Shown here: in pieces, positions 13,520-25,101 of the stretch
Layout of the letters: each line of letters begins with the position of its first letter
Position numbering within the stretch: position 1 is the first letter of the stretch
Source of the DNA: Rhodothermales bacterium
Lineage (GTDB): Bacteria > Bacteroidota > Rhodothermia > Rhodothermales > UBA10348
Reading direction: 5' to 3'
NCBI GenBank assembly: GCA_028284865.1
Contig: JANQQV010000024.1
Coordinates: forward strand, 62,001-126,000
Length of the DNA stretch: 64,000 nucleotides
The notes under the pieces: model-generated
Seen by the model: only the letters and a program-made list of their open reading frames with translations
What the model was told of the DNA's origin: nothing
The model's database searches: none
Position numbers and translations under genes: made by a program

Positions 13520-14155
13520 CTACTGTTCATCATTAACCAGGAACAGCGCGGTCTCATCGGACTTGCCCGCTCCAAGTCCGAGTTGCTGATAGACGAGATT
13601 ACCGCCCGCATCCAGAACGGAAATGATGTTGGAATGCGAGACTTCGCCATCGGGTGTCCGACGATAGCTGACCCCCAGGAGAGCCGCCATTTCGCGCACC
13701 TGATCATCGGGGGCTCGAAGCAGGATCCAACGCTCCGAGAGGTTTTTGTCTTCCAAGAATGCAGACAGGACTTCCGGGGAATCACGCTCAGGATCCAATG
13801 ACAACAGAACGATCCTGGCCGCGAAGTCAGCCTGATTCAGTCGGGTTTCGATCCGCTTCAGGTCCGCCAGAATCACGGGACACGACACCTGGCAGGAGGT
13901 ATAGGTCATGGCGACCAGCACCGGAACGCCGGCCAGGGACGCAAGCGATCGCTCTGATCCAGTGTGGTCTGTCCACGGGGTGTCCAGTTGGTACAAGGAC
14001 ATGGCCCCGAGGGCAGGCTCGACGGGGGGAGGGATGGTGGTATGCCCTGCATGCTCATTTGCGGGCTTGTCGTGCCCTGCATGCGCATTTTCGTCATGCA
14101 TTTCGTCAGCGCAACCGACGCACAGCACGAGCAGGAGTACGAGAAGTCGTGTCAT
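13520..14155 (-). CDS. SCO1/SenC family copper chaperone lipoprotein
   Basis: SCO proteins deliver copper to CuA or related centres, or act as thiol reductases for them. The 211-residue product has a lipobox (VLCVGC, Cys15), a His/Glu-rich linker with repeated HAGH (residues 20-40) that may bind metal, and a thioredoxin fold with the copper pair C88-x3-C92 (TSCQVSCP) and the third ligand H174 (VSHSNIISV). The N-terminal linker is unusual and resembles copper-binding tails. Its ATG overlaps the stop of the SUMF1-like gene by 4 nt, placing it as the third gene of the nirK operon. A role in loading NirK or the CuA subunit across the way is likely. Confidence 0.9.
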   Translation of the reverse strand: MTRLLVLLLVLCVGCADEMHDENAHAGHDKPANEHAGHTTIPPPVEPALGAMSLYQLDTPWTDHTGSERSLASLAGVPVLVAMTYTSCQVSCPVILADLKRIETRLNQADFAARIVLLSLDPERDSPEVLSAFLEDKNLSERWILLRAPDDQVREMAALLGVSYRRTPDGEVSHSNIISVLDAGGNLVYQQLGLGAGKSDETALFLVNDEQ

Positions 14156-14958
14156 GATGGTGGAGGCAGGGAGCGGGCGATACGAAAGCCGAGACGACTG
14201 CCCGCGTAGGATGCAGACAATCCACCCCGGTACGAGAAGCGGAGGAATGCGGCATAGTCCGTGAAGTCCGATGCGCCGATCACGCCGGCGCCACAGAACA
14301 GCTTGCGGTCAAGTCCGGAGTCTCCCCGGCTTTCTCCGGTTACCAGCGCAGAATTGAAGTCTGATGTCCATTCCCATACCAGCCCGTGCATGTCCCTGAT
14401 ACCCCAGTAGTTGGCAGGGCTGTTTCCGGTCAGTCCCAGTGGGCCACCGCCAGGGGCGTTGGTGGCAGACAGTACCCCGGCAAGGAACTCCGGATCAGAC
14501 CGGCCGTCTGCCGATGTGGAGCTGGCTCCGGCCACGTACTCCCATTCCGCCACCGTGGGCAGTCTGGCATCGGCCCATCGCGCGTACGCTTGGGCCGCAA
14601 ACCATGAGACATTGGTCACAGGTTGTTCGGGATGGGCCACGCCTAGTGTTGAATCGGATGCCCAATGGTGCAAGTAGGCCTCGCTGGCAAACAGTGGACT
14701 GACATTGGAGCGTCGCCACTTGGGGTTTTCCATGACGAAGTCCAGAAACTGCTGATTCGTGACCGGGTCAACGGCCATGAGGAAAGCGTCGACAGAAATC
14801 CGGGACGGTTCATCCGGAGCGCGATACAGCGCGCCGTACGTTCCGCCTTCGACTTTCACCATGGAAGGGTGGACATCGGCTTGCTGCGCACACGTTGGCC
14901 GGGGCAGTCCCGGAAGGACTGACCCGGCCAACAGGAATATGACAATGAGTACGCGCAA
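14152..14958 (-). CDS. SUMF1/FGE-fold protein of the nirK operon
   Basis: An exported protein with the formylglycine-generating-enzyme fold: KVEGGTYGALY, a DPVTNQQFLDFV segment, EQPVTNVSWFAAQAYARWA, RLPTVAEWEYVAGA, DMHGLVWEWTSDF and SYRGG...GSRLGFRIAR. The two catalytic Cys of true FGE are missing from the last segment, so modification of sulfatases is unlikely. The longest frame runs back to 15111 through nirK; I prefer a TTG start at 14958, 5 nt after the nirK stop, which opens a signal peptide (LRVLIVIFLLAGSVLPG, then CAQQ). Its position between nirK and SCO suggests a part in NirK assembly or electron transfer. The start codon is the weakest part of the call. Confidence 0.8.
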   Translation of the reverse strand: MRVLIVIFLLAGSVLPGLPRPTCAQQADVHPSMVKVEGGTYGALYRAPDEPSRISVDAFLMAVDPVTNQQFLDFVMENPKWRRSNVSPLFASEAYLHHWASDSTLGVAHPEQPVTNVSWFAAQAYARWADARLPTVAEWEYVAGASSTSADGRSDPEFLAGVLSATNAPGGGPLGLTGNSPANYWGIRDMHGLVWEWTSDFNSALVTGESRGDSGLDRKLFCGAGVIGASDFTDYAAFLRFSYRGGLSASYAGSRLGFRIARSLPPPS

Positions 14959-14962
14959 GCCG

Positions 14963-16384
14963 TCAATGGCTGCTGCGTACGCGGGTGACCGTCGAAGGTG
15001 TGACTTCAGCGCCGTCGTTGCCCCAGGACTTGTTGATGAAGGTGAGCACATTGGCCACCTCCTCATCCGACAGACGAACGGCAGGCATGACGCCGTTGTA
15101 GTCCACGCCATTCACCGTGATAGGTCCGCTCAATCCGTTGATTAGTGCGCGGATGGCACGGTCCGTGTCCTCAAGCAGGTAGTCCGAACCGGCCAGGGGA
15201 GGGAACGCACCGGCAAGGCCCTGCCCTTCCGGCTGGTGGCAAGCTGCACAGTTTGCAGCATAGATCCTTGCGCCGGCATCCATGCGTTCAGCGATGGTCT
15301 GAGCAGTCGGAGGCTCGGGTGCGCCACCAGGGATTTCCTGGATGGCACCACCCTCAGGCAGGTAAACCGTCTCTTCCTGCTTTCCGGAGTACATGTCCAG
15401 ATCTTCCTCGCCGGTGACGGTCAGCATACCGAGAGCACCTTTGTTGAATGCGCGAAAAATGGAATGGTCGACCAGAATGAAGGTACCGGGTACGTCAACC
15501 GTGAATTCGACCATGGCTGATCCACCGGCTGGAACGAGCGTCGTCTGCACATTCTCCTGGTTCGCTACCGTGCCGCCTTCCGTGTACACCAGGTCAAATA
15601 TCTCGCCGATCACGTGGAAGGAAGAGACCAGGTTGGGACCACCGTTGCCGATGTAAAGCCGAACCCGATCGCCGACTTCGGCCGTGATGGCATTGTCGCC
15701 GGTCATGGCGCCGACCGACCCGTTGAACACCACATAGTCGGCATCTTCATCCACCGCCTTCTGCATGTCGAAGGGCTGCAGACCGGGTTCGCCATACTCT
15801 CCGCCAGTGTAGAATTCACTCTGCATCACATAATACTCCTTGTCCACAGGAGGCAGCCCTTCTTTGGGCTCAACAAGGATGAGGCCGTACATGCCATTTG
15901 CAACGTGCATGCCCACAGGAGCCGTGGCGCAGTGGTAAACATACAGGCCTGGATTCGCAGCCGTGAATGAGAACGTGGATCCCGTTCCCGGTGCCGTGAA
16001 TGAGGATGCTGCCCCACCGCCCGGACCGGTAACGGCGTGCAGGTCGATGTTGTGCGGCATCTTGGAATCAGGGTGGTTGTTCAGGTGGAATTCCACAAAG
16101 TCCCCTTCGCGAACACGGATGAACTTGCCAGGGACCTCTCCGCCGAACGTCCAGAATGTGTATTCGACACCATCGGCAAGGCGCTTGACCTCTTCGGTGG
16201 TTTCGAGTTCAATGATCACCTTGGTAGGGTGATTGCGCGTGATGGCAGCCGGGACGGCTGGAGCGTAAGTCAGGACAGCCTGTTCTTCCCCGCTGATCTG
16301 GGGGTCGGACTGGCAACCGGTCAGAAGAAAGGAACCGGAAACCAGTATCAGTAAAACGAACGATGTAAAGGTTGATCGATTCAT
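14963..16384 (-). CDS. nirK: Copper nitrite reductase fused to cytochrome c
   Basis: NirK reduces nitrite to nitric oxide in the periplasm. I start at the ATG at 16384 because it opens a lipoprotein signal (LTGC, Cys24); the longer frame has no signal. The first cupredoxin holds type 1 copper ligands H111, C152, H160 and M165 and type 2 ligands H116 and H151, with catalytic Asp114. The second cupredoxin gives catalytic His257 (SSFHVIG) and the third type 2 ligand H307 (VDHSIF). Residues ~365-455 are a class I cytochrome c with CAACH (C379-C382-H383) and axial Met433, making a three-domain enzyme that can take electrons directly through heme c. It heads an operon with SUMF1-like and SCO genes and is divergent from the NO-reductase-like operon. 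Confidence 0.95.
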
Positions 16385-16689
16385 GGCGGGTCTTTGTTGG
16401 ATTTGATGGTTTTGGCCCAATGGTATTCCGGGTGGCAGCATTGACCTAACAGAACACTCCCTCAGAGCCGGGTAGGGGAAAATCCCACATCGGCCGGGCA
16501 TGCCACCCTGTCACCCCATGAAATGGGCCAACAAGCACGATTACGGCACATTTACATGTTGAAAACCACCTCATTTGGGGAAAAATGCAGGTGTGAAGAT
16601 TATATATAGATTATAGACTCTTTTATCTTTTTTTGATTTCATGGTGTCGAATCGCGTGTCATCAAGTGCTATTGAAGAGGAGCATCCAC
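16385..16689. promoter_or_regulatory. Divergent control region between nirK and the NOR-like operon
   Basis: This 305-nt gap must hold the promoters of both denitrification operons. It is A/T-rich on the right side (16592-16640, with gattatatatagattatag). A short inverted repeat cccat-gaa-atggg sits at 16515-16527. I see no convincing FNR/NNR/DNR-type box (TTGAT-N4-ATCAA). A Shine-Dalgarno (gaggag, 16677-16682) lies before the GTG start at 16690. Only the layout is certain. Confidence 0.5.
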
Positions 16690-16848: not shown

Positions 16849-17373
16849 ATGAGTATACATCCACCACCAAAGGATTGGTTCAAGGGACCGGAAGGCGGAG
16901 AGCGGCTCTGGATCGGCGTCGGATTCGTCTGGTGCATGATCCTGTTCATGGCCATGCCATTCGCTCATTTCCGGGGCAACCAGAATTCAACAGGGGAATC
17001 GTACGAAACCACCCCTGAGGCTTTCATGGATCGCATTGAGCGTTTCGTGCAAGCCAACCAAGTGGGAGAGCTGGAGGGCATCCCCATTGTTGAACCTGCT
17101 CCTGGCAGCGACATCTATTTGATCGGGCAGATGTGGCGCTGGTATCCAGTCCTGAAGCTGGCGAAAGATCAGACGTATCGACTTCATGTATCGTCATATG
17201 ATCTTCAGCATGGGCTGTCGCTACTACCCATGAACATGAATTTCCAGATTCTGCCGGGATATGATCACGTCTTGACGATCACTCCCACTACACGAGGAGA
17301 GTTCAGTCTGGTATGCAATGAATTCTGTGGCATTGGTCATCACCTGATGACGGGCCGCATCATCGTCGAGTAG
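16849..17373 (+). CDS. CuA-containing subunit II of a heme-copper enzyme
   Basis: The electron-entry subunit: one N-terminal membrane helix (LWIGVGFVWCMILFMAMPFA, ~20-39) and a periplasmic cupredoxin with the binuclear CuA site. Ligands visible are H121 (LQHGLS), C156 and C160 with E158 (CNEFCGIGHHLM), H164 and M167. At 174 residues it has the compact size of B-type (ba3) subunit II. It would receive electrons from a cytochrome c or cupredoxin, possibly the heme c of the neighbouring NirK system, and pass them to subunit I. The SCO genes on both sides of the locus fit a need for CuA assembly. Confidence 0.93.
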   Translation: MSIHPPPKDWFKGPEGGERLWIGVGFVWCMILFMAMPFAHFRGNQNSTGESYETTPEAFMDRIERFVQANQVGELEGIPIVEPAPGSDIYLIGQMWRWYPVLKLAKDQTYRLHVSSYDLQHGLSLLPMNMNFQILPGYDHVLTITPTTRGEFSLVCNEFCGIGHHLMTGRIIVE

Positions 17374-17386
17374 GAGGATCATCATA

Positions 17387-19105
17387 ATGGGCAATTTTAT
17401 TTCTGATCGGTTCCGCACGTGCTCAACGACCGGATTACCGGTGTGTCTCAACGCACAGTTCTTCATCAAGGCAAATGCTGTATTTGCCGTCATTTTCTTA
17501 CTCGTTGGTGCCATTGGAGCCATTCTTCTCGCGTTGACGCGTTGGAGTGAGGTTCACCTGTTGAGCGACATCATGTATTACAGGGTCCTGACTCTGCATG
17601 GGATCAACATGCTCATCTTCTGGATCCTGTTTTTCGAGATAGCCGTTCTGTATTTCGCCTGTACCAGTCTGCTCAATGCCCGACTGGGTTCGAAGTGGGC
17701 GGCCTGGCTTTCGATCATCCTGATGGTCGTGGGAGCATTGCTGACCGACTGGGTCATTCTGACAGGGAAAGGGGATGTGTTGATGACCTCCTATCCTCCC
17801 ATGTTGGCTCACCCGATGTTCTATCTGGGAATGATCCTGGTGGCTGTGGGGACGTTGGTCGGGGTGATCGTCTTCTTCGTCACCCTCTATCAGGCCAAGC
17901 GGGACAGGACATACGAAGGGTCCATGCCACTCGTGACATTCGGAGCACTGGCAGCGGCAATCATTGCCGTGTTCACGCTGCTGCACGGTGCCATCGCGTT
18001 GGTACCAACGCTGACGTGGTCACTGGGATGGACACCCGAGCCCGACCCGGGCTGGTACCGACTGATGTGGTGGGCGCTGGGACACCCTGCACAACAGGTG
18101 AATCTGTGCGCCATGGTGGCGATCTGGTACTTCCTGGCCACCCTGACCACAGGTGCGAAGCCGCTCAACGAAACGGTTTCCCGGGCGGCATTCGTCCTGT
18201 ACATCCTGTTCATCAACGTGGCCTCTGCTCACCACCTGCTGGTTGATCCCGGCTTGAGCGCTTCGTGGAAGATCTGGAATACTTCCTACGTGATGTACCT
18301 GGCCGTGCTTGCTTCGCTCATCCACGGATTCACCGTACCAGCGTCGGTCGAGGTGGCTCAGCGACTCAAGGGGTATACGAAAGGACTGTTCGGTTGGCTG
18401 GCGAATGCGCCTTGGAAGGATCCCGGGTTCTCGGCATTCACGCTGTCCGCCTTGATTTTCGGGTTCATCGGTGGCATCACTGGTGTCACGATCGGGACTG
18501 AACAGATCAACATCCTGGCCCACAATACGATGCGTGTGCCCGGGCATTTCCATGCCACCGTCGTTGGAGGCACTACGCTGGCCTTCATGGGACTGACTTA
18601 CTACGTGGTACCTCTCATATTCCAGAGGGAATTCTACATGCGAGGGCTGGCCCGAGTACAGCCATATCTGTTTGCAGCTGGTATCACCATCATGTCGATC
18701 GGAATGTCGTTTGCAGGTTCCTACGGCGTTCCCAGACGGCACTACGACATTGACTTCACCGGTGCGGCTATTCCGGCCGGATTCGATGCAGGGGCCCACT
18801 TCATGATGGGCGTCATGGCCATCGGCGCAATCATCGCGTTCCTGGCCATGCTGCTGTTCATCCTGCTGGTTGTGGCAGCCGTGTTCTTCGGCAAATCGAA
18901 CAAGGAAACGGGCATGAATCCGTGGCAATCGCCAGAGGCCATGGCCCGTAACCGAGCCATCTACCTTCAGCGGGATGCGGCATACGAGAAAGTGACTCAT
19001 GGAACCAAGGGAACGATGGCGTTGGTCTTCATCCTCCTGATTTCCTTTGTCGTCTACTACTTCGCAAATTGGAATGCCCTCACCGATGTCTGGTTCGTCC
19101 GCTGA
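17387..19105 (+). CDS. Heme-copper subunit I, NO-reductase-like (eNOR-type), lacks active-site Tyr
   Basis: A polytopic membrane protein of 572 residues most like B-type (ba3) oxidases. It keeps the low-spin heme ligands H71 (LHGINML) and H389, the high-spin ligand H387 (VPGHFH), and the CuB ligands H233 (LGHP) and H282/H283 (AHHLLVDPG). In B-type oxygen reductases helix VI reads HPxVY, whose Tyr is cross-linked to the CuB His; here it is HPAQQ, with Q237 in that place. Loss of this Tyr is the mark of NO-reducing branches of the superfamily. With nirK next door I infer NO reduction to N2O. A strong aggagg precedes the ATG. Automated pipelines would probably call this a cytochrome c oxidase. 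Confidence 0.85.
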   Translation: MGNFISDRFRTCSTTGLPVCLNAQFFIKANAVFAVIFLLVGAIGAILLALTRWSEVHLLSDIMYYRVLTLHGINMLIFWILFFEIAVLYFACTSLLNARLGSKWAAWLSIILMVVGALLTDWVILTGKGDVLMTSYPPMLAHPMFYLGMILVAVGTLVGVIVFFVTLYQAKRDRTYEGSMPLVTFGALAAAIIAVFTLLHGAIALVPTLTWSLGWTPEPDPGWYRLMWWALGHPAQQVNLCAMVAIWYFLATLTTGAKPLNETVSRAAFVLYILFINVASAHHLLVDPGLSASWKIWNTSYVMYLAVLASLIHGFTVPASVEVAQRLKGYTKGLFGWLANAPWKDPGFSAFTLSALIFGFIGGITGVTIGTEQINILAHNTMRVPGHFHATVVGGTTLAFMGLTYYVVPLIFQREFYMRGLARVQPYLFAAGITIMSIGMSFAGSYGVPRRHYDIDFTGAAIPAGFDAGAHFMMGVMAIGAIIAFLAMLLFILLVVAAVFFGKSNKETGMNPWQSPEAMARNRAIYLQRDAAYEKVTHGTKGTMALVFILLISFVVYYFANWNALTDVWFVR

Positions 19106-19106
19106 C

Positions 19107-20039
19107 ATGGATACGCTGGATCGCATCCGGGAATTCATTTCCGGATGGCGTTTTCCAATCATCTTGATCTCGATGATCGGAAGCACGGTATTGCTGATGG
19201 GTGCGGTGCTTCTGATTCCATCGTCGGCCGGTCCTGCCTATGCGTTTGCTGAGGACTTCAAAGTCTTGTGTTTCGGATACGACCCAGCATCCGGTTCAAT
19301 GGAATGGGCCTACGTATGGATGTTTCTCGTCCAACCGCTGATCCTGGCCGGTTTGATGGCACTGGTGTGGCGGGATCCATTGACCCGAGCCGTTTCTGAG
19401 TCCCGAGCTGCGCTGCTGAAGACGGTGGCCGGTACGGGGTGCTTCGTAGTTGTTCTCGCGGCGATGGTCCCATTCATCCTGCAGCCGGACCCGGGTTTCG
19501 CATCGGAGTCATTTCCAGGCGAGCGCATCCGGACGTCTGTTCCGTCGGCGGCGTTCCAGTTGACCAACCAGCATGACCAGTCATTCGAGATGGCGTCCAC
19601 TCGCGGGCAGATCGTGGTGCTGACCGCGGTTTACGCCACGTGTGGGGATACGTGTCCCCAGATTCTCCAGCAGGTCAAACGGGCCGTAGGTGCGCTGTCA
19701 TCCGAGGAGCAGGAGCAGGTTACCGTTGTGACCCTTTCACTGGACCCGGAAACTGACACACCCGCAATGCTGACCATGATCGCCGAGCAGCACGGGCTTT
19801 CTTCCGACGTCTTCCAATTGCTGACTGGTGCTCCGGAGAAGGTGGATCGCATTCTGGATGACTACGGATTTCGAAGGTGGCGCAACGAACGCGGCATCAT
19901 CGAACATGCCAACCTGATCCATGTAATCGATCGTGAAGGGTTGATAGCCTATCGCCTCGCACTTGGAGACGTGCAGGCCGTCTGGCTGGAGGAAGCCATG
20001 AAGCAGTTGATTGCAGAGCCGGCACCGGTTACAGAATGA
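19107..20039 (+). CDS. Membrane-anchored SCO family protein with extra N-terminal domain
   Basis: Residues 1-125 form three hydrophobic segments (FPIILISMIGSTVLLMGAVLL; WAYVWMFLVQPLILAGLMAL; TGCFVVVLAAMVPFIL) with one Cys in FKVLCFGYDP between them, not a normal SCO anchor. The rest is an SCO thioredoxin fold with the copper pair C179-x3-C183 (ATCGDTCP) and H267 (HANLIHV). It would insert copper into the CuA or CuB site of the preceding enzyme. The start at 19107 follows the subunit I stop by 1 nt; an overlapping start at 19086 is possible. Its end overlaps the next gene by 4 nt. Confidence 0.88.
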   Translation: MDTLDRIREFISGWRFPIILISMIGSTVLLMGAVLLIPSSAGPAYAFAEDFKVLCFGYDPASGSMEWAYVWMFLVQPLILAGLMALVWRDPLTRAVSESRAALLKTVAGTGCFVVVLAAMVPFILQPDPGFASESFPGERIRTSVPSAAFQLTNQHDQSFEMASTRGQIVVLTAVYATCGDTCPQILQQVKRAVGALSSEEQEQVTVVTLSLDPETDTPAMLTMIAEQHGLSSDVFQLLTGAPEKVDRILDDYGFRRWRNERGIIEHANLIHVIDREGLIAYRLALGDVQAVWLEEAMKQLIAEPAPVTE

Positions 20040-22153
20040 GACAAGACCCACGTCCCATTCTTGATGATGAACGGAGGCCTGCGATCCAGATCGATCGTGT
20101 TGGAGCGGCACGTAATGACTCCCCTTTGCGAGGAAACGCTTTCTTCGAACGTCTGGAATCCCTGTTCTCGTGGGTGACCCAGCGGGTTGGGGCACGGATT
20201 CCAGAGTCGGCGAACCCGTTCGCCAGGGCAGGTGCTGTAGCAAATACCGCATTTGTCATTGCACTGGTCTCCGGCATACTGCTTCTTTTTTGGTATAGAC
20301 CAAGCGTCAATCTCGCATGGGCTTCGCTGGATGACATGGGGGGACTGGGGCAATTCATCCGTTCCATTCATCGCTACAGCTCGGATTTGGCCATGCTGTT
20401 TGCGTTGTTCCATGGCATCAAGACCGTGGCGGAACGCAAAGTGGGCGGGTCGAGGTGGCTTCCATTCCTTTCTGGGCTGGTACTGGTAGGCGCTCTTTGG
20501 CTGGATGGTTGGACGGGGTACTGGCTGGTCTGGGATGTTGGTGCCCAGAAAATCGCCATGAATACAGCGGCGCTTGTGGATCTGCTGCCCATCTTCCCTG
20601 ATCCACTGTCCCGGTCGTTCCTGACGAACGATGCTGTCAATTCGCTGCTGTTCTTCATCGTGTTCTTCATTCACATGTTGATCCCGGTGGCGTTTGCCAT
20701 ATTCCTGTGGGCCCACATCCTGCGGGTCAATCGCGCGCGGTTTTTCACAGGGCGTATACTCTCTTTCTGGTTGATTGGCAGCTTGAGTGTGCTGTCCCTT
20801 CTATTTCCTGCATTTTCCGGAGAGCCCGCCGACATGGCGCTCATTCTTGAGGGACTGGAGGGAGACTGGTGGTTCCTGGGGCCCATGACCGTTATCGAGC
20901 GGTTGGGAGGGAAGGCAATCTGGATGGTTTTTGGCGTGACGACGGTTGTACTGTTCACCGTTCCATGGTGGGCGCCCCGCCGGCGGGTAAAACCAACTGT
21001 CATTGACGCTTCTCGGTGCAACGGATGTCAGCAGTGTGTCCGTGATTGTCCGTTCAACGCCATCGACCTGATTCCGGATGAAGGCGTGCGCAGGGAGAGT
21101 CCATTCCATGCCCAAGTCAATCCTGCGCGGTGTGTTGGTTGTGGTACATGTGTTGGCTCCTGTGATTCGTCTGCTATCGACGCGCCCCGCCTGCCGGTGC
21201 TCGATGCCCGTCGCTTCCTGAACGCCGTATCGAAACACGAAAGCGATTCGCCGACCATGGTGGCCTTCCTGTGTGGTGCATCAGGTGCAGCGTCATTCGC
21301 AATTGGAGCAGACGGCACGTGCCCGGACCTCCCGGGGTATCGGGTCATTCCGGTGATGTGTACGGGTTGGGTACACATGCTGACGGTGGAACGAGCGCTC
21401 CGGCACGGTGCGGCCGGCGTGCTGATCGTGAGTTGTGGCCACGATGCTCCGTGCAGGTTTTCGGTTCAATGGACGGCTGAGCGGCTATCCGGGGATCGCG
21501 GCCCCGAGTTGCGTTCAGATCATGTTGATGCATCGCGCATCCGGCACTTTTCTTCCGGGCCAGGAGGAAAACGGGAGATCATGGAGCAGGCTGCCCTTTT
21601 CCGCAGCCGATGTGTGGGGAATGATCCTCAGTCCACCACGGTGGAGACGCCGTTGCCCCACACGCCATTGTCGCGGGTCAGGAGCATGGCAGCGGGATTG
21701 ATGGTGAGTTGTGTGTTGGGTGCCATGGTGGTGGTGTTGTCGAATCGGGATCTCCTTTTACCCCGTGTGGAAGGCGCCCGGCTGGTAGTGTCGTTCAAGC
21801 TGTCTGGCCAGGTCCTTGAGACTGGCGAAGTGGTCGATGATGACAACGCGCTATCCCACATGCGACGGGTTCGACCCGTTTCCAGGGAGCGCAGTCCCGT
21901 CAACATGGTGGTGATGGTTGACGGAGAGGTAGTGTCCGAGGCCCCCTACGCGCCGGGTGGAATTTTCAATGATGGCGAATCCGTAGCCATTGAGGAATTC
22001 GTACTGGATCCCGGAACGCATCATGTGCAGATTCGGATAGCGGACGAACCCGACGATGAGAGTCCCTTCGTGTACGATGCCGACATCTCTTTTGACGCAT
22101 CCCGGAGGCGTGTCATCCGATTCGACACGATATCCGGATTCAAACTGCATTGA
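20036..22153 (+). CDS. Cytochrome b / 2x[4Fe-4S] ferredoxin / MvhD-like fusion protein
   Basis: A 705-residue multidomain redox protein. Residues ~65-240 are a cytochrome b N-terminal module with two bis-His heme pairs on helices B and D (H112/H126 and H213/H227, 14 apart). Two further helices follow, then two [4Fe-4S] motifs (C328/331/334/338 and C366/369/372/376). Residues ~405-500 resemble the MvhD/FlpD delta subunit with five Cys (C413, C429, C442, C467, C473) that could hold a [2Fe-2S] cluster. A final helix near 560 precedes a beta-rich, probably extracytoplasmic C-terminus. It ends the NOR-like operon, so it may link the quinone pool or a cytoplasmic donor to NO reduction. Electron bifurcation is possible but unproven. 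Confidence 0.85.
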   Translation: MRQDPRPILDDERRPAIQIDRVGAARNDSPLRGNAFFERLESLFSWVTQRVGARIPESANPFARAGAVANTAFVIALVSGILLLFWYRPSVNLAWASLDDMGGLGQFIRSIHRYSSDLAMLFALFHGIKTVAERKVGGSRWLPFLSGLVLVGALWLDGWTGYWLVWDVGAQKIAMNTAALVDLLPIFPDPLSRSFLTNDAVNSLLFFIVFFIHMLIPVAFAIFLWAHILRVNRARFFTGRILSFWLIGSLSVLSLLFPAFSGEPADMALILEGLEGDWWFLGPMTVIERLGGKAIWMVFGVTTVVLFTVPWWAPRRRVKPTVIDASRCNGCQQCVRDCPFNAIDLIPDEGVRRESPFHAQVNPARCVGCGTCVGSCDSSAIDAPRLPVLDARRFLNAVSKHESDSPTMVAFLCGASGAASFAIGADGTCPDLPGYRVIPVMCTGWVHMLTVERALRHGAAGVLIVSCGHDAPCRFSVQWTAERLSGDRGPELRSDHVDASRIRHFSSGPGGKREIMEQAALFRSRCVGNDPQSTTVETPLPHTPLSRVRSMAAGLMVSCVLGAMVVVLSNRDLLLPRVEGARLVVSFKLSGQVLETGEVVDDDNALSHMRRVRPVSRERSPVNMVVMVDGEVVSEAPYAPGGIFNDGESVAIEEFVLDPGTHHVQIRIADEPDDESPFVYDADISFDASRRRVIRFDTISGFKLH

Positions 22154-22217: not shown

Positions 22218-23318
22218 TCAAAGACTATCCATGGTGAACAGACGGGCGAACCGTGCTTGAAATGGTTGGCTCAAGATGAGTCGGGCGAACAAGCGCCGAA
22301 TCGGATACAGACGACCGGGTCGACCCACAAACATGTTGAGCTCGGATCGCCTCGCTGCCTTCCGGAATGATTTCTTTCGCACGCGCTCATAGTGTGAGAG
22401 GGCTGCAGGTGATGCACCATTCGCAAACCACTCTGCCAGCCAATCGGCGTCCATCCAGCCGAGATTCATTCCCTGACCTCCGATCGGGCTGATCACGTGG
22501 GGCGGGTCGCCCGCCAGGGCGGCGCGGCCCACGACGAAACGCTCGGCCTCGAATCGCTCGGCGGTGAAAGCCGATACCATGGAGCACGCGTCCAGGGGAA
22601 GCTCTTCTCCGGTTCGCCTCGCTACGGCCTTGCTCAACATCGACTGTAGCTGCGAATCCTCTTTGGCATCAGACGGATTGGCCACCCGGGCTACCCATCG
22701 GCGCGTTCGTCCGGGAAGTGGGAAGCACTCAACGACTCCTTCCCGATGCAAGTAGATCGCTGCGTCTTCTCCAAAGACGGTCGTATCCGGAAAATCGCCC
22801 ATGACGTAGTGCTCGTCGTAAGAGGCTCCGTCAAACGGTATTCCGAGCAGGTCCCTAACCGTACTGCGACGGCCATCGCACGCTATGACCCAGTCAGCTT
22901 GCTCACCGTCAATGTTGACATAGCTGTCAGATTGCTCGAGCGCGGTCACATCGATGCCGCGTCGAACAGGTTCGCCCAGCGACTCGAATAACGCTTCAAG
23001 TACGGATTCCGTCACATGCTGGGGGACTGCCAGCACGAAAGGGAAGGGGGGTGGCAGGGCTTCGAAAGAAAGCACTCCGAGCGGTCTTCCCTCCGCAAAT
23101 CCTTGGCCGCGTGCGACGCGAATGCCACGATCAATCAACGCATCGGCAACGCCCAGGGCATGAAGTCGCCTGAGTGCGGGCGGGTGAATGCCGATGGATC
23201 GCGAATGTGTCGAGCGCGCGACGCGACGCTCCAGAATCGTACAGTCGACTCCGTGCTTGCGCAGCAGGCACCCCAGGTACAGCCCGACGGGCCCGGCGCC
23301 GACGATGATCACTCTCAC
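22218..23318 (-). CDS. FAD-dependent monooxygenase (UbiH/PHBH fold)
   Basis: An aromatic-ring hydroxylase-type flavoprotein of 366 residues: Rossmann motif VIIVGAGPVGLYLG at the start, ERRVARSTHSRSIGIH, the DG motif (VIACDGRRSTVRDLLG) and the second FAD motif (GRAALAGDPPHVISPIGGQG) with NLG after it. The longest frame starts at 23375, but the GTG at 23318 overlaps the methyltransferase stop by 4 nt (GTGA) and places the FAD motif at the N-terminus as usual. In the srs system of Streptomyces the third enzyme, a flavoprotein hydroxylase, oxidises the methylated resorcinol ring to a quinone. The same role is inferred here. Confidence 0.88.
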   Translation of the reverse strand: MRVIIVGAGPVGLYLGCLLRKHGVDCTILERRVARSTHSRSIGIHPPALRRLHALGVADALIDRGIRVARGQGFAEGRPLGVLSFEALPPPFPFVLAVPQHVTESVLEALFESLGEPVRRGIDVTALEQSDSYVNIDGEQADWVIACDGRRSTVRDLLGIPFDGASYDEHYVMGDFPDTTVFGEDAAIYLHREGVVECFPLPGRTRRWVARVANPSDAKEDSQLQSMLSKAVARRTGEELPLDACSMVSAFTAERFEAERFVVGRAALAGDPPHVISPIGGQGMNLGWMDADWLAEWFANGASPAALSHYERVRKKSFRKAARRSELNMFVGRPGRLYPIRRLFARLILSQPFQARFARLFTMDSL

Positions 23319-24013
23319 GACGATCCCCGGTGTGTGAGTAGCAGCCGAAAAGGCATCTTCTTCTCCGCACGCCACCCCGCAGGCAATCGGCCGTCAAGAT
23401 CATCAGGATGCCAGGAGCGCCGAATGGAACGCAGCCCGTCGGTCATAATGAACGATCCTCGAGCGGCGAGTCCGACGGGGATGAAGCTGAGCCATGCCAG
23501 GTCATCCCGGCAGATATCGTTGTGTAGGGCCAGACTGCGCGACAGCGTAGCAGAATCCTCAAGCAGGACGTTTAAGGCAGGATCGTCGAGGTGATGAAGC
23601 ACATGGTTGGACACCACGATGTCGAACGACAAGCCCTGGTCGACCAGCTCAGAGGAGTGGATCGCGTGATAGCTGATTCGGTCGGATTCGGTGCGCGCCA
23701 ACGCATAGTCGATGGCCCGCTTGTCCGGGTCAATGCCAGTCAGTGAGACCGATTTATTCTCAGCGCGCGACATGTCGTCGATCAGTCGCAGCAAATCGCC
23801 TCCACCACACCCGATATCGAGAATCGTGGTGGTCCGATCCGGGGCCATCAGAGGGGAAAGATGACTGTTGTACAGCGATCGCCAGCGTGCCAGCCAGGGA
23901 TTCAGTCTGGAAAACCAGTCGTAGGTTCGGTGTAGACCTCGCTCATCACAGTCCGGATCGTCCATGATTTCGATCAGATCCGTGTTGCGTGATGTGAGGA
24001 AAAGTCTCGGCAT
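23315..24013 (-). CDS. SAM-dependent methyltransferase
   Basis: Class I methyltransferase of 232 residues. Motif I is ILDIGCGGGDLLRL at ~64-77, followed by the acidic end of strand 2 (TGIDPD) and motif post (VVSNHVLHHLDD). Genes of this kind beside a type III polyketide synthase methylate the phenolic ring. Its ATG overlaps the polyketide synthase stop by 1 nt (TGATG) and its stop overlaps the monooxygenase start, so the three are one transcript. Confidence 0.9.
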   Translation of the reverse strand: MPRLFLTSRNTDLIEIMDDPDCDERGLHRTYDWFSRLNPWLARWRSLYNSHLSPLMAPDRTTTILDIGCGGGDLLRLIDDMSRAENKSVSLTGIDPDKRAIDYALARTESDRISYHAIHSSELVDQGLSFDIVVSNHVLHHLDDPALNVLLEDSATLSRSLALHNDICRDDLAWLSFIPVGLAARGSFIMTDGLRSIRRSWHPDDLDGRLPAGWRAEKKMPFRLLLTHRGSS

Positions 24014-25101
24014 CAGATGCGTTCAAACAGACCTGTTTCAACTGTCAGCCCCGGGCCGAACGCCATCGCCATCGCTTTCTCTCCCGATGAGGCATTAGCC
24101 AGCGATTCCTTGAGGACGAACAGGATCGTGGCGCTGCTCATGTTACCGTACTCAGCGAGAACCGAGCGGGACGCCGTCAGCGGTGCATCGTCAATGTCCA
24201 GTCCGTTACGGACCTTGTCCAGGATGGCTCGGCCACCCGGATGAACCGCCCAGTGGGTGATGTCGTCACGGGTCCATCCGGATTGTTCAAGGACTGGGTC
24301 GACGACTCCACCGATGTTGGCTTCCAGGATTTTGGGTACGTACGTCGACAAGACCATCTTGAATCCCTTGTCTCCTATCGTCCAGGCCATGTCTGATTCG
24401 CTGTCAGGAGCGATGGTGGAGTCCATGGACTCGAATCGGAAAGCCGCTCCAGATGCCGGAGGCTGGCCCGTGACTAGAGCCGCACTTGCTCCGTCAGCAA
24501 ATACCGAGAAGGCGAGGATGTCGTCTACTTCTTCCGATGGTTCGAGGTGCAGCGAGCACAGCTCGAGGCAAACCACGAGGACCACGGCATTTGGATCCTC
24601 GGCGCAAAAGGCCCGAGCCATGTTCAGGGCCGGGAAGGCTGCATAGCACCCCATGAATCCAACGTGGACGCGTCGCACGGAGGGCGCTAGGCCGAGGTCC
24701 TTGACGAGATGGAAGTCGGGTCCGGGGGCGTAAAAACCCGTGCACGAGGCGGTGATGACATGGGTGACATCGTCAGCACTGAATCCGTCTGCGGCGTCGA
24801 GCACGCTACGTCCAGCCGCTTTGAACAACGGTCGGGCATGCGCCATGTAGTGATCATTCCGCGTTCCCGTCGTAGGCGACCGGAAGCTTCCCTGATCATC
24901 GATGAAGTCGCCTCCTCCGTCCCGCAGATCAGTGATCACGCTGTGGCGTTTGTCGATGCCAGAGTGGGCGTAGATCCGATGGACCAATTTGGAAGCCCGG
25001 CTCCCTGGCGTCAACGATGCGAGCATGACCTGAGCCGCTTCATCCTGTGAATAGGACGTCTTAGGCACGGCGGTCTGGATGGCGTGGAGATAGGCTGGCA
25101 C
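24013..25101 (-). CDS. Type III polyketide synthase
   Basis: Chalcone-synthase-fold enzyme of 362 residues that extends an acyl-CoA with malonyl-CoA units and cyclises it to a resorcinol or pyrone. The catalytic triad is visible: C152 (VGFMGCYAAFPAL), H287 (WAVHPGG) and N320 (EYGNMSSAT). The neighbouring GFG-type loop reads AFGPGLTVETGLF at the C-terminus. With methyltransferase and FAD hydroxylase downstream in overlapping frames it forms an srsABC-like set for methylated alkylresorcinols or alkylquinones. The acyl starter cannot be read from sequence. Being first in the operon, it sets the promoter upstream of 25101. Confidence 0.93.
   Translation of the reverse strand: MPAYLHAIQTAVPKTSYSQDEAAQVMLASLTPGSRASKLVHRIYAHSGIDKRHSVITDLRDGGGDFIDDQGSFRSPTTGTRNDHYMAHARPLFKAAGRSVLDAADGFSADDVTHVITASCTGFYAPGPDFHLVKDLGLAPSVRRVHVGFMGCYAAFPALNMARAFCAEDPNAVVLVVCLELCSLHLEPSEEVDDILAFSVFADGASAALVTGQPPASGAAFRFESMDSTIAPDSESDMAWTIGDKGFKMVLSTYVPKILEANIGGVVDPVLEQSGWTRDDITHWAVHPGGRAILDKVRNGLDIDDAPLTASRSVLAEYGNMSSATILFVLKESLANASSGEKAMAMAFGPGLTVETGLFERI

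Follow-up and report, generated by a model that had tools for sequence, protein, structure and literature searches.

CytbFd, a cytochrome b–ferredoxin–MvhD fusion protein encoded at the end of the operon of one eNOR branch

The last gene of an eNOR-type (putative nitric oxide reductase) operon in a Rhodothermales bacterium encodes a single protein, here called CytbFd, which combines a b6-type membrane cytochrome b, two [4Fe-4S] cluster motifs, and an MvhD/FlpD domain. It lies within the window, by which we mean the whole stretch of 64,000 nucleotides that was analyzed. eNORs form a group of nitric oxide reductases that has received little study; they may conserve energy as they produce N2O, a greenhouse gas. 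A biochemical study of the Rhodothermus marinus eNOR is said to have appeared in PNAS in 2024. CytbFd is a concrete candidate partner of one eNOR branch and has so far never been found apart from that branch. In it, a bc-type cytochrome is joined to the Fe-S/MvhD wire known from electron-bifurcating complexes of the methanogen type, a fusion which would widen the known ways of linking cytoplasmic carriers to the membrane. We consider it likely that CytbFd serves this one branch of eNOR as a dedicated transmembrane electron conduit.

CytbFd is the final gene of a tight operon and shares 4 bases at its start with the end of the preceding SCO gene. The operon and the nitrite reductase gene that adjoins it are laid out as follows, with functions assigned from family membership.

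14963 to 16501, minus strand: divergent copper nitrite reductase NirK, which makes NO, with a C-terminal cytochrome c (NCBIfam TIGR02376, 1e-107; Pfam Cytochrom_C)
16849 to 17373, plus strand: cupredoxin subunit II with a complete CuA motif, CNEFCGIGHHLM (NCBIfam CoxB, 5.2e-11; sequence)
17387 to 19105, plus strand: eNOR-type heme-copper subunit I (Pfam COX1, 6.2e-69; alignment)
19047 to 20039, plus strand, likely start 19107: SCO1/SenC protein with N-terminal transmembrane helices and the CxxxC motif kept (Pfam SCO1-SenC, 7e-21)
20036 to 22153, plus strand: CytbFd, the whole fusion protein of 705 amino acids plus stop (ORF call)

A Gln at the active-site Tyr position of subunit I is a mark of eNOR (PMC8756737). 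The subunit I of the window carries this Gln (GHPAQQ) and keeps the CuB His-His pair, and HxxQQ is found in all eNOR rows of our alignment. Because the NirK with its fused cytochrome c divergently adjoins the operon, its product NO is a plausible eNOR substrate, as judged from the gene arrangement. No FNR-type boxes were found in the gap between nirK and the eNOR genes. The NirK–cytochrome c gene is part of a divergent group (13520–16501, minus strand) which also encodes an FGE-sulfatase-domain protein, in a NirV-like position, and a second SCO1. On its other side, the operon adjoins a minus-strand group (22218–25101) in which Pfam identifies an FAD-binding oxygenase and in which we picked out by eye methyltransferase-like and type III polyketide synthase-like ORFs; this is possibly a small polyketide cluster.

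The sequence-only reading of this DNA had recognized a cytochrome b, two [4Fe-4S] clusters, and an MvhD-like domain in one protein, and profile searches bore this out, with Cytochrome_B, two Fer4, and FlpD all matched. It had missed the tail of the protein, which consists of a further transmembrane helix and a β-sandwich domain. The parts of CytbFd, all on the plus strand, are as follows.

20201 to 20731, plus strand, residues 56–232: b6-type cytochrome b domain (Pfam PF00033 Cytochrome_B, 1.2e-13), containing the bis-His heme ligands H112, H126, H213, and H227 and glycines G66, G80, G147, and G161
20738 to 20983, plus strand, residues 235–316: two extra transmembrane helices with an invariant D277 (hydropathy, alignment)
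20999 to 21187, plus strand, residues 322–384: two [4Fe-4S] motifs, C328/331/334/338 and C366/369/372/376 (Pfam Fer4 twice, 2.6e-11)
21248 to 21628, plus strand, residues 405–531: MvhD/FlpD domain (Pfam FlpD/MvhD, PF02662, residues 409–477, 2.8e-9, above the cut-off)
21677 to 21745, plus strand, about residues 550–568: transmembrane helix (hydropathy; also a helix in the models)
21761 to 22150, plus strand, about residues 576–705: C-terminal β-sandwich domain (model pLDDT 83)

In an alignment of 17 CytbFd sequences, the four heme-ligand His and all eight cluster cysteines occupy invariant columns, and the heme-packing glycines are also conserved (one gap, in an incomplete row). Together with E-values from 1e-9 to 1e-13, this conservation excludes chance as the source of the domain assignments. 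The His columns line up with the His of cytochrome b6 (6rqf_I), and CytbFd shares with the cytochrome b of b6 and bc1 complexes (PF00033) the four bis-His ligands, the Gly pairs, and, with the former, a b6-like sequence. In contrast to these cytochromes, CytbFd has Fe-S and MvhD domains at its C-terminal side, no Rieske gene in its operon, and no recognizable subunit IV. We suspect a kinship of the two extra helices (residues 235–316) with cytochrome b subunit IV, and by eye we picked out a PEWY-like stretch (GDWWFLGP...ERLGG) at about residues 277–290. Pfam gave no match to a subunit IV or cytochrome b C-terminal domain over residues 235–316, and the PDB profile match of CytbFd ends at profile position 107 of 189, leaving the subunit IV region unmatched.

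The FlpD assignment is robust, because three comparisons agree on it: CytbFd relatives cover nearly the entire FlpD profile (positions 2–118 of 123, 9.8e-11); a profile built from the CytbFd FlpD domain, searched against the PDB, matches MvhD-type chains at 3.7e-10 along almost the whole of the profile; and the best structural matches of the predicted FlpD part are MvhD chains (8rvu_F, Z 12.2 over 118 residues with an rmsd of 2.7; 5odh_D, Z 11.6), the best non-MvhD chain over the same part reaching Z 6.9. Among the cysteines of this domain, C413, C442, and C467 are invariant and C429 is present in 16 of the 17 sequences; the CCxxC motif of MvhD is reduced to one Cys in CytbFd, with C413, C442, and C467 plus C429 or another Cys present, so that the domain may or may not bind a [2Fe-2S] cluster through the cysteines usual for the family. 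As in the C-terminal part of HdrA2 and in the MvhD/FlpD of Hdr-Mvh and Hdr-Fdh complexes, two [4Fe-4S] clusters are followed by MvhD in the same order, and the Fer4–FlpD stretch of CytbFd matches the HdrA2 model as a unit (positions 572–718 of 777, 1.3e-21; up to 772 in relatives). HdrA2 has an FAD-binding HdrA body which CytbFd lacks, and CytbFd scores 76 bits against an HdrA2 cut-off of 1100. In Hdr-Mvh complexes, a hydrogenase or dehydrogenase is the source of the electrons that MvhD receives. CytbFd differs from both MvhD and HdrA2 in being fused to a membrane cytochrome b, and no Hdr or hydrogenase partner was found for it.

The last helix and the β-sandwich domain are conserved in the family. 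In the Defluviimonas plasmid described below and in one further genome (G211), this tail is a separate gene beside a shortened fusion gene, so helix and domain form a module. The full-length AlphaFold model was poor (8 sequences, mean pLDDT 54) and was used for the FlpD and C-terminal parts only; the C-terminal domain modeled alone (pLDDT 83) gave generic β-sandwich matches only, the best being HGSNAT (Z 9.2, rmsd 2.5, 89 residues). The C-terminal domain of CytbFd contains no CxxCH or other redox motif. H608-M609 is invariant among the Rhodothermia relatives that have the domain, and we considered it as a copper site; Defluviimonas has N-M there, and the pair remains a hint. Hydropathy and the comparison with cytochrome b6 suggest a layout of helices A–D, two more helices, the Fe-S part, the last helix, and the C-terminal domain. 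Since six helices precede the Fe-S part, it should lie on the N-terminal side, which by analogy with cytochrome b6 would be the cytoplasm; helix 550–568 would then return the chain to the periplasmic side, placing the last domain in the periplasm.

We surveyed 244 genomes of the class and a sample of 296 genomes across the phylum; outside the phylum, we searched a plasmid collection. (The class name Rhodothermia and the label Rhodothermus-like, for family f2, are names that we inferred.) CytbFd is present in 17 of the 244 class genomes, all 17 of which have the clade-A eNOR subunit I, itself present in 19. The two clade-A genomes without CytbFd (G332 and G376) are no evidence of its absence, because both contigs stop inside the SCO gene. 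In the phylum sample, the seven genomes with CytbFd are exactly the seven with an eNOR of at least 65% identity. Every class locus that we read has the order II, I, SCO, CytbFd on one strand, and in the carriers not read in detail the matches to eNOR subunit I and CytbFd are on one strand, separated by ∼1 kb. Among plasmids there was one full relative, in an alphaproteobacterial (Defluviimonas) operon with the order II, I, heme O synthase, SCO, CytbFd; a bacteriohemerythrin gene follows this operon (L039, 20041–20445, plus strand). A scan of viral contigs for CytbFd relatives found nothing, and a scan of genome contigs yielded a single find that is very probably genome G449 again, with the same identities (L002). 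The link of the fusion to an NO-reductase-type operon, already made in the sequence-only reading, holds well beyond the window: CytbFd comes after eNOR II, I, and SCO, no carrier that we found lacks eNOR, and within the phylum and the plasmids the protein did not turn up frequently alongside unrelated operons.

Other branches of eNOR do without CytbFd. It is present in none of the 11 class genomes with a second eNOR branch (clade B, 42–44% identity), nor was it found at the eNOR loci of plasmids from Thermus and Thermomicrobium, and hence it is not a catalytic subunit common to all eNORs. The CuA motif is also present in the Rhodothermus-like and Thermomicrobium loci, and since these CuA-bearing eNORs lack CytbFd, an accessory fits better than a catalytic subunit. 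SCO and CytbFd occur together in every CytbFd operon that we read and are both missing from 18 other eNOR loci, in 11 of which the absence of SCO was seen with ∼1.5 kb of flank, some of these being excerpts from loci that were read at 19 kb as well. The carriers are mostly of one lineage, and a single class supplies most of them, as draft or metagenome assemblies. In the subunit I tree, the Rhodothermia carriers group firmly (99/98), and either one or two origins of the operon are compatible with it, so the co-occurrence reflects few independent events.

CytbFd is the sole PF00033 cytochrome b in seven carriers, which therefore lack any further cytochrome b of the bc1 or b6f type. All seven carriers tested encode NrfD-type proteins, a kind of protein that is also part of alternative complex III. 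There is no other FlpD domain in the genome of the window and no full HdrA2 in the seven carriers (G449 has a partial match to the middle part of HdrA2). None of the operons read contains a gene for a cytoplasmic dehydrogenase, a hydrogenase, a formate dehydrogenase, an Hdr subunit, or a Rieske protein.

In its layout, CytbFd resembles CcoG (RdxA/FixG), a cupric reductase of cbb3 oxidase assembly whose gene directly follows the oxidase genes and whose membrane part, two [4Fe-4S] clusters, further helix, and periplasmic Ig-like domain find counterparts in the order of parts and the terminal β-sandwich of CytbFd (PMC7558416). However, CytbFd has hemes b and MvhD, and the membrane and C-terminal parts of the two are not homologous. 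We rejected homology of the whole protein, since the TIGR02745 matches in the genome of the window are on C17 and in a short piece of C26 only and not at the CytbFd locus, and we rejected homology of the terminal domains, since hhalign gave a probability of 4.7 with an alignment over the transmembrane helix only. As far as sequence comparison can tell, the two are alike in layout alone. Similar in architecture is RME88945.1, which an appendix table lists without discussion as a PRK03735 cytochrome b6, a DMSOR-beta-like ferredoxin, FlpD, and a cytochrome c domain (PMC8756737). Like CytbFd, it unites cytochrome b6, ferredoxin-like, and FlpD parts in one ORF; it differs in the extra cytochrome c (C1) domain. 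Our literature search found no published description of the CytbFd layout, and the statement of the sequence-only reading that it knew of no described protein with this layout was nearly right, the exception being this related fusion in the table.

As a membrane conduit, CytbFd would work with a cytoplasmic partner docked on FlpD, and electrons would pass among this partner, the two [4Fe-4S] clusters, and the hemes b; the chain of centers would run from the FlpD cluster, if present, through the two [4Fe-4S] clusters to one heme b and then the other across the membrane. We tentatively favor, as a possibility rather than a probability, that its task is maturation of the eNOR metal sites together with SCO, a CcoG-like role performed by different domains, in which CytbFd would supply reducing equivalents for building these sites (by reducing copper or the thiols of copper sites). 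The genes beside CytbFd serve assembly (SCO in every case, joined by heme O synthase in Defluviimonas), and these neighbors, the lack of a dehydrogenase, the fact that other eNOR branches manage without CytbFd, and the precedent of CcoG make maturation slightly more likely than electron supply for turnover. Against maturation, the combination of cytochrome b and MvhD exceeds the needs of a copper reductase and looks respiratory, the C-terminal domain has no profile similarity to the Ig-like domain of CcoG, and most of the carriers tested have a canonical CcoG gene at another locus. The respiratory look is taken at face value if a cytoplasmic donor (ferredoxin, or an NADH- or formate-linked enzyme) docks on FlpD and its electrons travel by way of both [4Fe-4S] clusters to hemes b and on to quinone, reaching eNOR via a quinol:cytochrome c step. 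A route of this kind, between ferredoxin/NADH-type donors and the quinone pool, was the example that the sequence-only reading had offered. We regard this as possible though doubtful, and as nearly as good an explanation as maturation because the same wire, the Fer4–FlpD electron entry of HdrA2, feeds HdrA in methanogens; it also accords with a b6-type cytochrome b that has no PF00033 companion in seven carriers and with the proposal that the MvhD of Sporomusa ovata links membrane redox carriers with HdrCBA (PMC9430772). Its difficulties are that the operon offers no dehydrogenase and the genomes neither a second FlpD (window) nor a full HdrA2 (seven carriers), that CCxxC is cut to one Cys, and that the tie to SCO and to one eNOR branch is left without explanation.

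If instead quinol were oxidized at the cytochrome b and electrons passed to the CuA subunit, CytbFd would be the direct donor within a quinol-fed NOR supercomplex, its cytoplasmic clusters tuning or sensing redox state. Occurrence in the same operon in all cases, the PEWY-like stretch, and the cytochrome c domain on RME88945.1 (PMC8756737) speak for such a role, which we nonetheless find improbable: it is weakened because CytbFd has no redox motif on the periplasmic side, its C-terminal domain being without CxxCH, there is neither a subunit IV signature nor a Rieske gene in the operons read, and the NrfD-type proteins of all seven carriers mean that the quinol:cytochrome c step may already be covered. 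A redox or NO sensor or regulator, or an enzyme reducing a cytoplasmic acceptor driven by quinol and the membrane potential, would agree with a cytochrome that spans the membrane and with the hemerythrin gene that comes next in Defluviimonas, and yet CytbFd lacks both an output domain and a constant partner in the cytoplasm, and four or five redox centers are needless for sensing; we think this very unlikely. A more novel possibility, in our estimate rather unlikely, is that CytbFd represents a new membrane electron-transfer unit, with the Fe-S/MvhD wire of HdrA2 mounted on a quinone-reactive cytochrome b. It would couple cytoplasmic reductant directly to NO reduction in one eNOR branch, feeding the enzyme or its quinol pool with no need for a conventional dehydrogenase complex.

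Several neighbors of eNOR were seen during the survey. On two Thermus thermophilus plasmids (L055 and L056), the eNOR-like loci adjoin genes for DUF542, Rrf2, and multicopper oxidase proteins, with a cytochrome P460 also in L056; the CuA motif C-x-E/W-x-C-x3-H-x2-M was not found in either locus. In clade-B (Rhodothermus-like) operons, the place of SCO and CytbFd is taken by a conserved protein of ∼260 amino acids (L050, 7560–8339, minus strand; L051, 10746–11540, plus; L052, 8081–8851, minus; L053, 10619–11437, plus), and the one tested had no Pfam or NCBIfam match. In genomes of families f14 and f55, an extra heme-copper-like membrane protein is encoded directly upstream of eNOR II (L034, 14486–15949, minus; L035, 3857–5311, plus; L036, 4218–5639, plus; L037, 14191–15603, minus; L038, 14710–16128, minus). 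This protein has no NCBIfam match, is 470 to 487 amino acids long, and is 23–27% identical to eNOR I; the CuB His-His pair is lost (LLAAPLL or similar) and the GGH and HYH positions are kept.
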